A stretch of DNA of 50,490 nucleotides from Orenia metallireducens (GTDB taxonomy: Bacteria; Bacillota; Halanaerobiia; Halobacteroidales; Halobacteroidaceae). Positions 2,734 through 19,589 of this stretch are shown piece by piece. The notes under the pieces are model-generated. The model saw only the letters and a program-made list of their open reading frames with translations. It was not told where the DNA came from and ran no database searches. Each line of letters begins with the position of its first letter. Position 1 is the first letter of the stretch. The translations under genes were made by a program, and so were the position numbers. The stretch spans positions 411,308 through 461,797 of the forward strand of contig NZ_LWDV01000010.1 in the NCBI RefSeq assembly GCF_001693735.1. The letters run 5' to 3'.

Positions 2734-3159
2734 TTATAAAGCTTCTTCTACCTTAATGATTATATCACTATCTTCTTCTTTCATATGAGCTACCAATTTA
2801 TTAATCAAATCTTCTTTTAAATTGGTTATAAACAATTTAATTAAAAAAAGATCGGAGCTATCCTGCACTAATTCCCAATACTTTCTTTTCAATTTCCCCA
2901 AATTCTCTTTTAAACGTTGATGTGCTTGCTTATGCTTACTATAATTAAAATAGTTAATTTTCTTTAAAATTTGCTCTTCTTCAATAAAATGAGTCTCTAC
3001 ATAATCAGTTAAGAAATATAATAAAGTCTCTAAATCTACCTTTAAATCTACCCCTTGATTCAGTTTTTGAAGAAATTTATTTATTGTTTTCAAAAATATC
3101 CTGTGATGATTATCTATTTTGGGATACCCAAGTTCTAACTCACTATTCCACTCGGTCAT
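2734..3159 (-). CDS. Bacteriohemerythrin
   Basis: This 141-residue four-helix protein binds O2 at a di-iron centre. It may act as an oxygen scavenger or sensor in an anaerobe. Ligands of the hemerythrin signature are visible: H18/H19 in the IDNHHRIF stretch, H57 and E61 (HFIEE), H76 and H80 (HxxxH), and H125 with D130 (HxxxxD). The family normally opens with 'W-x2-x-LELGYPxID', as here after MTEW. A longer reading to 3258 would add residues encoded by a hairpin leader, so I place the start at 3159, which has GGAGGT about 12 bases upstream. The gene stands alone, with an attenuator-like hairpin in its leader. Confidence 0.9.
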   Translation of the reverse strand: MTEWNSELELGYPKIDNHHRIFLKTINKFLQKLNQGVDLKVDLETLLYFLTDYVETHFIEEEQILKKINYFNYSKHKQAHQRLKENLGKLKRKYWELVQDSSDLFLIKLFITNLKEDLINKLVAHMKEEDSDIIIKVEEAL

Positions 3160-3209
3160 TTTATTATCCAACCTCCATCCAAAGATTAAATTATAATCAA
3201 AAATATAAA

Positions 3210-3238
3210 ACCCTATATTATAAGAAATAATATAGGGT
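3210..3238 (-). terminator. Leader terminator/attenuator in front of the hemerythrin gene
   Basis: Arms accctatattat (3210-3221) and ataatatagggt (3227-3238) form a perfect 12-bp stem with a 5-base loop, followed on the minus strand by TTTTATATTTTTG. It lies between a likely promoter (TATAAT, complement of 3472-3477) and the hemerythrin ATG at 3159, so transcripts must pass it. Upstream of it, ATAACC and GGTTAT could pair around positions 3255-3285. No known riboswitch class matched by eye. The roughly 200 bases between promoter and this region are plain AT-rich DNA. Confidence 0.55.
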
Positions 3239-3568
3239 GGTTTCACCATTAACTCCATATAACCCTTAGGTGACCAAATACAGGTTATACTTCACAGTTC
3301 CTTAATAATTTCACTTATGTAATTTTATCACTCTAATCTTACTTAGCTAAAAATTATGATAATTCCTTCTTTTTAATTAAATTTTAATCAAGCTTTAATT
3401 AATTTTTAACTAATCTTCTATCAATTTATATTAATTAGAAATTTAAATTATTAATTTCACCTCTACATATTATTATACAATTAATTAAAACCAGATAAAA
3501 GATGATAAGAGAAGTAATCTAACAAATTTGTGATTAAGAGATTAGAAAGATCGATAATTTAACTTAAG

Positions 3569-15080: not shown

Positions 15081-15086
15081 TATAAA

Positions 15087-15122
15087 TAAAACCAAGCGGG
15101 AATTTTCATTCCCGCTTGGTTT
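15087..15122. terminator. Bidirectional terminator (nrd operon / chemoreceptor)
   Basis: Two 16-base arms (15087-15102 and 15107-15122), GC-rich in the middle (ccaagcggg / cccgcttgg), flank a 4-base loop. A-tracts and T-tracts on both sides allow use on either strand. Confidence 0.9.
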
Positions 15123-15150
15123 TATTTATAAAGATATTAAAAACTTCTGC

Positions 15151-17025
15151 TTAAATTTGAAATTTATCAACTAATTCATGTAACTTCTGGGCCATATTAG
15201 CCAATTCTTGTGAAGAATAGGTAACCTCTGCAGACATATTACTGATATCATCAGTAATATTTATAATTTCTTCGCTATTATCTGCTAAAACCTGACTAGA
15301 AGCAGCTGTCTGTTGAAGATGATTAAATGTATTCTCACTAGAATCTTCAATCTCTTTAAACAGTTCTCCAGTGCTCTCTATAGTAGCTTGTCCATTTTTA
15401 GTTTTTAATTCAACCTGATTAATAGCTTTTAAAGCAGATTCAGACTTACCCTTTATTTCTCCTACTAAATTAGAAATGTCAGATGTTGCATTATTAGTCT
15501 CTATTGCTAACTCTCTAATCTCATCTGCTACTACTGCAAAACCTCGTCCATACTCTCCAGCTCTAGCTGCTTCAATAGATGCATTAAGTGCTAGTAAGTT
15601 AGTCTGTTCAGCTATATTATTAATTAAGTCTACAACCTTCTCAATCATCTGTGAATCATTATCTAGCTGATTAATAACCTCTACTGTATCTTCTACTACT
15701 TGATTGATTTCTTTCATACTACTTACTGTATCTCTAATATTACGACTCCCTATTTCAGTCTTGGAACTAGTTTCTTGAGAAAAAGAAGTTACCTCTTGTA
15801 CACTACTAGAAATTTGTTGTATACTTGTTGATATTTCAGATATAATTTGTCTAGTATTCTCTATAGTAGCATTACCTTCTTGACTAGAAGCAGATAATTC
15901 CTCACTAGTTGATGAAATATCACTAGCAGCCTCCAAGACATCTATCACAATCTTCTTTAAATTATAAACCATAGAATTAAATTCATTTGCTAGTTCTCCT
16001 ATTTCATCATTCCGTTCAAAATCAATACTTACTTGCAAATCTCCTTTAGCTACTTTCTTCATAACCCCAATTAACTGAGAAATAAAATCTAATAAATATC
16101 TCTTTATAAAGGTGGAAATAAATATAGCTACCAAAATTAGCACAACTATATCTACTATTAAAATTTTTCTACCAATCTTATCTTTACTTTCATAAACCTT
16201 TTCAACTAAATCCTGGGCAAATATAACTCCATCAATTACAGGTAATGACACATAAGAACCCATTACCTTTCTATCTTTAAATGAATACCCAATACTTCCT
16301 CTTTCTTTAGCCTTAACGATATTCATATCTATTATCTGCCCCACATCATAACCTTCCTCAACCATTTCTTTATTTGGGTGAGCAATAATCCTATTATCTT
16401 TGTCTATAACATAAGCATAGCTTAGACCATTTGACTTATTAGTTACCATTTCCTGAATAGAGGTTAATAACATATCTACACCTAAAACCCCTATAAAGTC
16501 ACCATTATCATTAATTACTGGAGCTACTAAAGTAATTAGTGGCTTATTTATATCTTTATCTAAATGAAGATCAGTCCACATAATATCTTTTCTATCTTTA
16601 ATCTCTTGATACCAGCCCTTATTAGAGATATTTAGTCTTTGGTCTTCAGGATAAAAATAATTTTGACCAAAGTTTGTAGCAAGGTATAACCTTACAAAAT
16701 AGGGGTAATCTTCTTTCAAATTTTTAAATAAATCTTTTACTGCCCATTCGTTTGCATATTTAACAGAGTCTTGGTGGGAGATCAACTTTATTATTTCTGC
16801 GTTTCTATTAAAGAAAGATTCTATTTGATTTTTTAATCCATCTGCTTTCTCCTCATTCTTTTCTTGAGCTAATTTAGTTAGCTCCTTTGATACAGAGTTA
16901 TTCACTATTAATCCTAGGATTAAAAATGAAGCTACTAATATAGCTACTATAATTCCTACAGCTTTGAAGGATAGATTATTCTTTAGGTTTAATTTCTTTA
17001 ATTTCTTTAATTTCTTTAATTTCAT
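15151..17025 (-). CDS. Methyl-accepting chemotaxis protein with Cache sensor
   Basis: A chemoreceptor of about 624 residues. It has a basic N-terminus with a tandem KKL repeat, membrane segment 1 (about 23-45), and an extracytoplasmic dCache-like sensor ('[19 protein letters not shown]', '[16 protein letters not shown]', '[14 protein letters not shown]'). Membrane segment 2 lies near 290, then HAMP ([13 protein letters not shown]). The long signalling coiled coil has the conserved tip '[19 protein letters not shown]' that binds CheA/CheW. The start could be TTG at 17031 or ATG at 17025, both behind AAGGAGGGAG; ATG is preferred. It is flanked by a DctP-like binding protein, which could deliver a ligand, but no direct evidence is visible. 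Confidence 0.93.
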
Positions 17026-17059
17026 GTGCAATACTCCCTCCTTCTATTACCTAAATATC

Positions 17060-17108
17060 ATATAAGAGGTTTCCTTCTAGACTAATAAGAAAAAGAAACC
17101 TCTTATAT
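17060..17108 (-). terminator. Terminator after the DctP-like gene
   Basis: Arms atataagaggtttc (17060-17073) and gaaacctcttatat (17095-17108) form a 14-bp stem between the binding-protein stop and the chemoreceptor start. It probably separates their transcripts. Confidence 0.65.
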
Positions 17109-17116
17109 ATTGATAA

Positions 17117-18187
17117 TTATTTTTTTTCTAAATCTTCTAGTAAAATTTGATATAACTCTTCTCCAATTATTTTTCTCCATTTATCCCTTACTGGCTGTGT
17201 CTTATCTTTAAATGCTTGATATTGTTCTGAAGATAAGATACTAACATTCATTCCTTTGCTTTCAATAAATTTTATAGGATCTTCAAAAGAAAATAACTTT
17301 TCTTCATTATTTTCTTTTAAATAATTTAATGCGGTACCATCATCAAGCCCCATCCTTGCTAACATCTGTTCATATTCTAAGGCTTCTTCAGCGGATTTTT
17401 CAATAATTTCTTGAGTCTTACTATCAAAACTATCCCAAACCTCTTTATTAATACCAATTACTAAGGGATCAAATAGATAATGCCATAAAGTAATATAACT
17501 ATGATAATTCCAGATCTCAACTGGAATCTCTACACCTAATAATGGGTTTTCTTGACCATCAACTACACCTTGCTTAAATCCATTAATTGCTGACCCCCAA
17601 GGCATACTTATTGGTCTTGCACCTAAAGCATTATAGGTATCAAAAAAGATAGGTGTTCCAACAACTCTAACCCTAAGTCCTTTCAAGTCATCAGGGCTTG
17701 TAATTGGTCTTTTACTATTAGTAATCTCACGAAATCCATTTTCTCCCCAACCAAACGCCTTAACACCTTTCTCTTCTAATAAATTTAAAATATATGCTCC
17801 TGTCTTACCATTATAAATAGCATCAATCTCATCATAACCTTGATACATAAAAGGCAGAGAAAAGACATTTAACTCCTTAACCTGAGAGGACCAGTTAATA
17901 GTTGATGATATAGCCATATCTATTTGTCCTTGCTGTAACATTGCAAATTCATTAGTTTGCTTTCCAGCAAATAGCTTTCCACCAAAATAAGGTTTGATCT
18001 TTACCTTCCCTGCTGTTCTATCTTCTACCAATTCAACAAATTTTTCTGCTCCAGCTCCCCAAGGAAAACCTGGACCAACAACTACACTAAGCTTATATTC
18101 ATCTTTAAATTGAGCTGCAGATACTACTGAAATATGAGCAAATAGTACCAATGCCAAAACCAATAAAATTGATAATTTTTTCTTCAA
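17117..18187 (-). CDS. TRAP-type solute-binding protein, DctP family (orphan)
   Basis: A 356-residue exported binding protein with signal peptide (about 1-24, cleaved near VVSAA). The DctP fold is marked by 'GAEKFVELVEDRTAGKVKIKPYFGGKL', 'LQQGQIDMAISS', the ligand-gating 'LKGLRVRVVGTP' with its conserved Arg, and 'GFKQGVVDGQENPL'. TRAP systems need DctQ and DctM membrane subunits; none lies nearby, so this protein must serve a distant permease or a sensor. The start is TTG at 18185-18187 behind AAGGAGGAAGG. It sits between a chemoreceptor and an acetolactate decarboxylase on the same strand. Substrate unknown. Confidence 0.9.
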   Translation of the reverse strand: MKKKLSILLVLALVLFAHISVVSAAQFKDEYKLSVVVGPGFPWGAGAEKFVELVEDRTAGKVKIKPYFGGKLFAGKQTNEFAMLQQGQIDMAISSTINWSSQVKELNVFSLPFMYQGYDEIDAIYNGKTGAYILNLLEEKGVKAFGWGENGFREITNSKRPITSPDDLKGLRVRVVGTPIFFDTYNALGARPISMPWGSAINGFKQGVVDGQENPLLGVEIPVEIWNYHSYITLWHYLFDPLVIGINKEVWDSFDSKTQEIIEKSAEEALEYEQMLARMGLDDGTALNYLKENNEEKLFSFEDPIKFIESKGMNVSILSSEQYQAFKDKTQPVRDKWRKIIGEELYQILLEDLEKK

Positions 18188-18248: not shown

Positions 18249-18271
18249 AGCTTCCTCTAAAAGAGGAAGCT
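18249..18271 (-). terminator. Hairpin after the acetolactate decarboxylase gene
   Basis: Arms agcttcctct (18249-18258) and agaggaagct (18262-18271) give a 10-bp stem. The following T-run is weak, so some readthrough into the DctP-like gene is likely. Confidence 0.6.
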
Positions 18272-18292: not shown

Positions 18293-19087
18293 CTACTCTT
18301 CAACATCTCCTAAATCATTTCCAGATTGTTCATTTAACTTTATATTTCTAAATGCTTCGCTATGAGGTAAGATTAATTGGAAGCCTGATGAATAATCAAT
18401 TTGAACTTCTCCACGCTTTAACTGGCACTCAAGTACATGTCCCCCACCTGTACGGTCTTCAGTAATGAAATGTAAATGAAATTTAGGAACATTAATTCCA
18501 TTAACATAATAAGGAGACCAAAAACCAACTAATGTACCCTTGGCATTATAAAAATCAAAGGTTGGCTGTGTAGCAGCTATTTCAGCTAACTTTGGATATG
18601 GTTTGCTCTGCTTAGGAACACTACGAGTCTTTACATGTTTAAATTCTCCTTCAATTTTGACAGCATAGAATATATTCTTGCTTGGTAACAATTCTGTTAA
18701 TTCTTCTTTAAGCTCCTCAATATCCTTTATTCCCTTAAATACAGCCTTTTTATCTTCTTCAAAATATGTAGTTACAGCAAAGGGAGTTTTGACAATATCT
18801 GAAACCTCTTTTACTTCTCCAGTGGATTTTACTTGATAAGCCACACCATCTAAAATCACCATCTCTCCATCTAAAGCATGGAAAGTTCCAAGACCAAAGT
18901 TACCATGGTCTAACAATTGACCAGTAGTAATATCTCCATCATATAGTCCTTGCAATAAAGCATCGATTGTTGAAATTTGAAATAAAGTATCTTGACCCTC
19001 AATCTGAGCATAACTAGTTAAACTTAGGCCTATTACCAACAGAACACTAGCTACTAAATACAAACTGCTTTTTTTAATAATTTTCAT
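18293..19087 (-). CDS. budA: Alpha-acetolactate decarboxylase, exported
   Basis: A 264-residue zinc enzyme that turns alpha-acetolactate into acetoin. The zinc ligands are H204, H206 and H217 (HLH-x10-H, followed by VLEC). The opening domain 'LFQISTIDALLQGLYDGDITTGQLLDHGNFGLGTFHALDGEMVILDG' (quoted only as landmarks; E75 is in DGEM) is typical. Unlike most family members it starts with a signal peptide (about 1-27, ending SYA), so it should act outside the membrane, as reported for the Brevibacillus enzyme. No acetolactate synthase is nearby. A candidate c-di-GMP-I riboswitch lies in its leader. ATG 19087 follows GAGGGAG. Confidence 0.92.
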   Translation of the reverse strand: MKIIKKSSLYLVASVLLVIGLSLTSYAQIEGQDTLFQISTIDALLQGLYDGDITTGQLLDHGNFGLGTFHALDGEMVILDGVAYQVKSTGEVKEVSDIVKTPFAVTTYFEEDKKAVFKGIKDIEELKEELTELLPSKNIFYAVKIEGEFKHVKTRSVPKQSKPYPKLAEIAATQPTFDFYNAKGTLVGFWSPYYVNGINVPKFHLHFITEDRTGGGHVLECQLKRGEVQIDYSSGFQLILPHSEAFRNIKLNEQSGNDLGDVEE

Positions 19088-19151
19088 AGATATCCCATCT
19101 CCCTCTCTAAGTATAATCTCTTGAATAATTATTTAAAAATTTTATTAAATA

Positions 19152-19174
19152 TGCTGAAGATTCTTTTTTCAGCA
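19152..19174 (-). terminator. Leader hairpin just before budA
   Basis: Arms tgctgaa (19152-19158) and ttcagca (19168-19174). It lies between the riboswitch terminator and the budA start, with AT-rich sequence after it. It may be a second, weak attenuator or mRNA-stabilising stem. Confidence 0.4.
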
Positions 19175-19178
19175 TAAC

Positions 19179-19237
19179 AAAAAATAAAAGTCCTAACCCT
19201 CTTAATGAAAGGAATAGAACTGTTTACTTTTCTATTC
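19179..19237 (-). terminator. Expression platform of the budA riboswitch (terminator/antiterminator)
   Basis: Two exclusive stems can form on the minus strand. The antiterminator is GAATAGAA (complement of 19230-19237) with TTCTATTC (complement of 19212-19219), 8 perfect pairs. The terminator is AGTTCTA (complement of 19215-19221) with TAGGACT (complement of 19189-19195), followed by a T-rich tract TTTTATTTTTTG (19178-19188). They share the bases at 19215-19219, so only one can form. Which state ligand favours cannot be read from the sequence. Confidence 0.55.
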
Positions 19238-19243
19238 ACTATT

Positions 19244-19336
19244 CTTTCGATAGTCTGACGATCTTAGTACAAGATTGTACCTTAGACTCAAAAACTTTGC
19301 GACCTTATCTTTCAATAAGTGTGCCGTTTCGGGAAT
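19244..19336 (-). promoter_or_regulatory. Candidate cyclic-di-GMP-I (GEMM) riboswitch upstream of budA
   Basis: The minus strand shows the GEMM-I order: CGGCACAC; P2 arms CTTAT/ATAAG closed by a U-GAAA-G tetraloop; then CGCAAAG with the ligand-stacking adenine; then GAGTCTAAGG (tetraloop-receptor side); a GTAC/GTAC hairpin; and GTCAGACTATCG closing the domain. Departures from the usual consensus are T for A in GACGCAAAG and a P1 helix with one G-U and one C-A mismatch (CGGCA against TATCG). It lies about 160 bases before budA with a terminator in between. The match is by eye against remembered consensus, without a covariance search. Confidence 0.75.
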
Positions 19337-19589
19337 AATAGAAATATATTATATTTTTACACCATCAATAATAGATAAAACGATTAAATCAATACATATT
19401 TTATATTATATTAAAATTATACCATGTATAATATACCAAATCAAGACAATAAACTAATTTAATGGTTTAAATTTTATTTTATTAAATTTTTGTTTTTATT
19501 TTAGTTATCTGATAAAAATAAATAATTTTACTAATAATAACCTAAAAACACTAAATTTTAACGGAATATTTTTATCAAAAAATTAAATT

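Follow-up and report, generated by a model that had tools for sequence, protein, structure and literature searches.

Why should a gene for an exported acetolactate decarboxylase stand behind a leader that looks like a cyclic-di-GMP riboswitch, and what does that leader control? The window considered here, a stretch of 50,490 nucleotides analysed as a whole, comes from Orenia, a salt-loving bacterium. The account that we favour, and consider moderately probable when taken as a whole, is that a GEMM-I termination riboswitch controls a three-gene cassette dealing with extracellular 2-acetolactate. The features of the locus, in order of transcription, are:

19416-19444, minus strand: predicted sigma-70-type promoter of the leader, TTGATT-17-TATAAT (10/12 consensus match, TG before the second hexamer)
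19330-19338, minus strand: 5' strand of P1 (UUAUUC C CG), pairing with 19239-19249
19246-19335, minus strand: c-di-GMP-I (GEMM-I) aptamer, with G at position 20 and U at position 92 (from RF01051 and alignment)
19239-19249, minus strand: 3' strand of P1, CGAAAGAAUAG, doubling as an antiterminator strand (from sequence and folds; identical in the orthologue)
19207-19244, minus strand: predicted antiterminator, GAA/AG/GAAUAGAA paired with UUCUAUUCCUUUC (-8.7 kcal/mol in both Orenia species)
19179-19221, minus strand: predicted intrinsic terminator, stem 19221-19189 and U tract to 19179 (-18.6 kcal/mol including the pairing of an A-rich 5' extension)
19150-19176, minus strand: second hairpin, AUGCUGAA...UUCAGCAU, with a weak U-rich tail (stem conserved in the orthologue)
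18293-19087, minus strand: budA, acetolactate decarboxylase (ALDC) with a predicted signal peptide (PF03306, 293.4 bits; TIGR01252, 281.7 bits)
18249-18271, minus strand: hairpin between budA and dctP, a possible partial terminator (10-bp stem, conserved in the orthologue)
17117-18187, minus strand: dctP, orphan TRAP solute-binding protein (SBP), probably for acetolactate (PF03480, 209 bits; PDB 4p8b)
15151-17031, minus strand: mcp, dCache methyl-accepting chemotaxis protein (MCP; PF02743, HAMP, MCPsignal; its orthologue follows dctP in O. metallireducens)
15083-15128, minus strand: strong terminator closing the cassette (20-bp stem, unaligned in the orthologue)

We confirmed that the budA leader holds a genuine GEMM-I (c-di-GMP-I) aptamer, as a sequence-only reading had proposed: when the whole window was searched with cmscan, RF01051 matched 19246-19335 on the minus strand over the full length of the model (1-87), with 63.7 bits against a gathering score of 35 (E = 3.1e-10). 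In the alignment the GAAA tetraloop, the receptor side UCUAAGG and the three-way junction with CGCAAAG are all present, where that reading had seen them. The aptamer fold has a predicted energy of -22.6 kcal/mol, and the fold of the leader is far more stable than those of dinucleotide shuffles (z = -4.0). Two details were revised. P1, said to carry one mismatch, pairs around a 1x3 internal loop; and the replacement of a conserved A by T, read as a possible change in affinity, does exist (GACGC to GUCGC) but is tolerated variation rather than decay, because it covaries with A to C in GGCAAAC (GGCACAC) in 19/139 aptamers of an alignment set made of 110 from relatives and about 30 (29-30) more. 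The 3.47 Mb genome contains seven GEMM-I copies, and the copy in the budA leader scores lowest among them. The promoter stretch is nearly unchanged in the O. metallireducens orthologue, whereas the DNA upstream of it diverges.

Below the aptamer, a terminator stem (about 19221-19189) is followed by UUUUAUUUUUU. The segment UUCUAUUCCUUUC is common to the terminator and the competing antiterminator, and the two are thus predicted to be mutually exclusive folds, as had been suggested; both are conserved in the orthologue, where U-A takes the place of a U-U mismatch in the terminator and the stem is predicted at -23.1 kcal/mol.

The proteins encoded downstream point to acetolactate outside the cell. 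The best PDB match of the budA product is 4bt2 (E = 5e-67), which we take to be the secreted acetolactate decarboxylase of Brevibacillus brevis; the metal-binding HLH...GGH is aligned. Its N terminus is hydrophobic and, judged by eye, resembles a signal peptide ending in SYA (MKIIKKSSLYLVASVLLVIGLSLTSYA, then Q), so that family models and N terminus agree with the exported enzyme described before. The SBP matches 4p8b best (E = 1.7e-86, 45.7% identity over nearly the full length; next match 8.6e-47), presumably the structure of a Ralstonia eutropha TRAP SBP with bound (S)-2-acetolactate. By sequence, acetolactate is probably the ligand of the Orenia SBP, and 2-acetolactate is listed in a review among newly found ligands of TRAP SBPs (PMC5812351). 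A structure model of the SBP was too poor for use (pLDDT 35), and a search of viral contigs gave no match. Relatives of the SBP in Thermus and Azospirillum adjoin genes for DctQM and a TPP-dependent E1 dehydrogenase. No linked DctQM was found beside the Orenia SBP, and the genome has only one DctM, encoded 130 kb from dctP and present also in the Orenia species that lacks the SBP; sensing is therefore favoured over transport, and the SBP may be coupled to the neighbouring chemoreceptor. The gap between dctP and mcp (17031-17117 of the window) contains a hairpin with a conserved stem (AGAGGTTTC/GAAACCTCT) and a variable loop, a possible attenuator or processing site. Two observations count against the favoured account: no acetolactate-synthase match in the genome exceeded the catabolic-family cut-off, and the hairpins in the budA/dctP and dctP/mcp gaps may split transcripts.

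Among 61 genomes (that of the window and 60 relatives), acetolactate decarboxylase was found only in the window's own genome and in one congener, Orenia metallireducens. In both, a GEMM-I element lies immediately upstream of the gene, and the order riboswitch-budA-dctP-mcp is the same. Promoter, aptamer and platform are all kept in the O. metallireducens orthologue, with identities of 85/90 in the aptamer (94%) and 75/78 in the platform (96%), compared with 725/795 in the budA codons (91%). A third Orenia genome has neither ALDC nor SBP; there nrdG adjoins pfkA, with no GEMM-I in the gap. Since cassette and switch are absent together, they are gained or lost as one unit. That only two genomes carry the cassette counts against our account, and a GEMM-I element was absent from all 16 further ALDC loci examined, so the association finds no support outside the genus.

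Which ligand does the aptamer read? We numbered positions as in Vc2, fixed from published contacts: those to the ligand in 3IRW are G14-G21, C46 and A47 (PMC7288161), G11 of Cd1 corresponds to G20 of Vc2, and C75 of the pilM aptamer is the Watson-Crick base (PMC9262584). The window aptamer has G20/U92, and its O. metallireducens orthologue (L038) has A20/C92. The U for C at 92, which the sequence-only reading did not mention, is unusual for a ligand-contact base. At positions 20/92, the 110 aptamers of relatives have G/C in 96 cases, A/C in 10, G/U in 3 and G/G in 1; with the further 29, partly chosen as variants, the 139 comprise 107 G/C, 20 A/C, 8 G/U and 4 others. If the five differences between the orthologous aptamers are drawn by chance, they include both positions in 0.02-0.3% of draws, a post hoc figure. 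A flgB leader elsewhere (L149, 1555-1650) also has G20/U92, and its three closest orthologues (L130, L132 and L144) are A20/C92 throughout, which repeats the exchange seen between the budA switches. Another GEMM-I aptamer (L238, 1814-1909, minus strand), resembling the pilB leader L143, has A20/U92, a combination with which a laboratory mutant binds c-di-AMP. We rejected an A20/U92 toggle as a general law, since Halanaerobium-type flgB and pilB leaders include G/C, A/A and A/U. Single substitutions at either position have been reported to admit a hybrid ligand: C92U lets Vc2 bind 3',3'-cGAMP (Shanahan 2011, as cited in PMC12032345), and the G20A mutant of Vc2 binds cGAMP (PMC7288161). As U92 is known from functional mutants, membership of the GEMM-I fold is still compatible with it.

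The ligand is most likely c-di-GMP. As its Gbeta would lie opposite U92, we infer that the aptamer holds it less tightly than one with C92 would. Since the base pairing one ligand guanine is U, c-di-GMP is plausible and not secure as the ligand; weakened c-di-GMP binding is the default because neither a Hypr GGDEF nor a SMODS cyclase was found. We regard it as distinctly unlikely that the natural role of the switch is to sense 3',3'-cGAMP and that the two orthologues are interchangeable solutions for one hybrid ligand, in which G20 of the window would face the ligand guanine and U92 would pair with the adenine, whereas the A20/C92 orthologue would bind the ligand flipped by 180 degrees. Each orthologue does have exactly one of the two substitutions reported to bind cGAMP, chance seldom hits both positions, and the flgB leaders provide a second case in another family. 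However, of the 12 GGDEF proteins encoded by the genome, 11 have Asp at the base-contact position, one has Asn, and none has the Ser of Hypr enzymes; a SMODS cyclase (CD-NTase) was not found in the genus. In addition, position 20 is variable among the leaders of flagellar and pilus genes, one of which, of the pilB type, has A20/U92; this suggests that the positions are relaxed or tuned. In the literature, position 20 is a selectivity factor and no hard filter (PMC9262584). The more specific proposal, that the alternation of A20/C92 and G20/U92 reflects natural compensatory evolution in the ligand pocket, with both forms reading 3',3'-cGAMP in opposite orientations, is decidedly doubtful, and no cGAMP synthase was recognised in the Orenia lineage among the Hypr GGDEF and SMODS candidates searched. 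Orenia GGDEF proteins with Asn for Asp at the base-contact position (GHPAGNEAL) occur at L074, L077 and L079, which are orthologues in three genomes, and at L248. Assignment of the window element to the GEMM-Ib (cGAMP) riboswitches was rejected: these are recognised by A20, and the window has G20.

With c-di-GMP as the preferred ligand, the direction and reach of the switch can be weighed. The best antiterminator fold uses GAA and AG of the 3' strand of P1 (19239-19249), so a stabilised P1 should favour the terminator. Most pairs of the antiterminator stem are independent of P1, and the OFF direction is therefore not forced. In C. difficile every functional class I switch is OFF, and GEMM-I switches in other species may be ON or OFF (PMC6366702). 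From the predicted folds, an OFF switch, in which ligand-bound P1 leads to termination as in class I of C. difficile, is most likely. An ON switch, in which ligand would free the antiterminator and raise cassette expression with c-di-GMP, would fit the diversity among species and the many pairs that need no P1 strand, but stabilised P1 should weaken the antiterminator that borrows from it, and we consider this unlikely. It is somewhat unlikely that the switch regulates budA alone as a metabolic gene, so that sessile cells would stop forming acetoin outside and the transcript would end at the hairpin behind budA. Such a limit would agree with budA being the first gene and with the 10-bp hairpin at 18249-18271, which is followed by a T-rich stretch and conserved in the orthologue; yet the U tract behind this hairpin is weak, gain or loss has affected the three genes jointly, and chemoreceptors lie downstream of other switches in the genome. 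That the riboswitch has decayed and lost binding at useful concentrations is very improbable and was rejected: U92 is rare and the copy has the lowest score of the genome's seven, but aptamer and platform are conserved above the coding sequence, stems and loops are intact, and the terminator pair is improved in the orthologue.

The favoured account thus has an OFF switch heading all three genes. GEMM-I switches elsewhere in the genome stand before the flgB operon and two chemoreceptor genes, one for an MCP and one for a soluble Diacid_rec-MCP, which places the budA switch in a chemotaxis and flagella regulon. In this light, the earlier suggestion that a fermentation enzyme is tied to the motile/sessile switch was too narrow, as the switch heads a budA-SBP-MCP cassette. 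We propose that when the cyclic dinucleotide is scarce, as in the motile state, the antiterminator would form and budA would be transcribed, and at least some of the transcripts would continue into the SBP and chemoreceptor genes. The exported decarboxylase would convert secreted or environmental acetolactate to acetoin, while the orphan SBP may present acetolactate to the dCache receptor. Ligand binding would stabilise P1, deprive the antiterminator of the P1 3' strand, allow the terminator to form and switch the cassette OFF, so that sensing and removal of acetolactate would be switched jointly with motility. The cassette has the appearance of a module for sensing extracellular acetolactate, embedded in the usual motility regulon. 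Elsewhere, a soluble chemoreceptor that contains a sugar-diacid recognition domain lies behind a GEMM-I element (L006, 1495-1595, minus strand), and next to it comes a membrane protein resembling gluconate-type permeases; and within the window a c-di-GMP-II riboswitch (RF01786, 62.7 bits) at 3226-3310 on the minus strand extends into the beginning of a bacteriohemerythrin-like ORF (2734-3258), whose true start is probably downstream.

If correct, this account explains why c-di-GMP should control a decarboxylase, and it adds to the GEMM regulon a self-contained module for the sensing and removal of an overflow metabolite outside the cell. A literature search, outside which most subscription journals lay, found no paper in which acetolactate decarboxylase is tied to a c-di-GMP riboswitch. 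The GEMM-I fold itself is known; within the reach of these checks, what is new is the cassette that it controls and the natural exchange at the two ligand-reading bases. Among the closest systems is the c-di-GMP-I riboswitch Cd1 before flgB of C. difficile, which shares the aptamer, the terminator/antiterminator platform and the link to motility and chemotaxis; in contrast, the budA switch controls an exported ALDC-SBP-MCP cassette and has U at ligand-contact base 92. The budA product belongs to the same exported enzyme family as the 4bt2 decarboxylase, with the metal-ligand histidines aligned, but its gene stands behind a riboswitch and next to genes for sensing. Likewise, the SBP is 46% identical to 4p8b but is an orphan beside a chemoreceptor, without DctQM. 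The O. metallireducens orthologue shares A20 with the GEMM-Ib cGAMP riboswitches of Geobacter, whereas the window aptamer has G20 with U92 in a host without a detected Hypr GGDEF synthase. Finally, the C92U and G20A laboratory mutants of Vc2 (PDB 3MUR, 3UD3/3UD4, 3MUM and 4YB1) have the identical single substitutions that are natural in the Orenia orthologues. Those mutations were engineered in one RNA, whereas in Orenia they are natural alternatives in orthologous switches, and such a pair, differing at both ligand-reading bases, makes the evolution of GEMM-I specificity testable on two short RNAs with three ligands.
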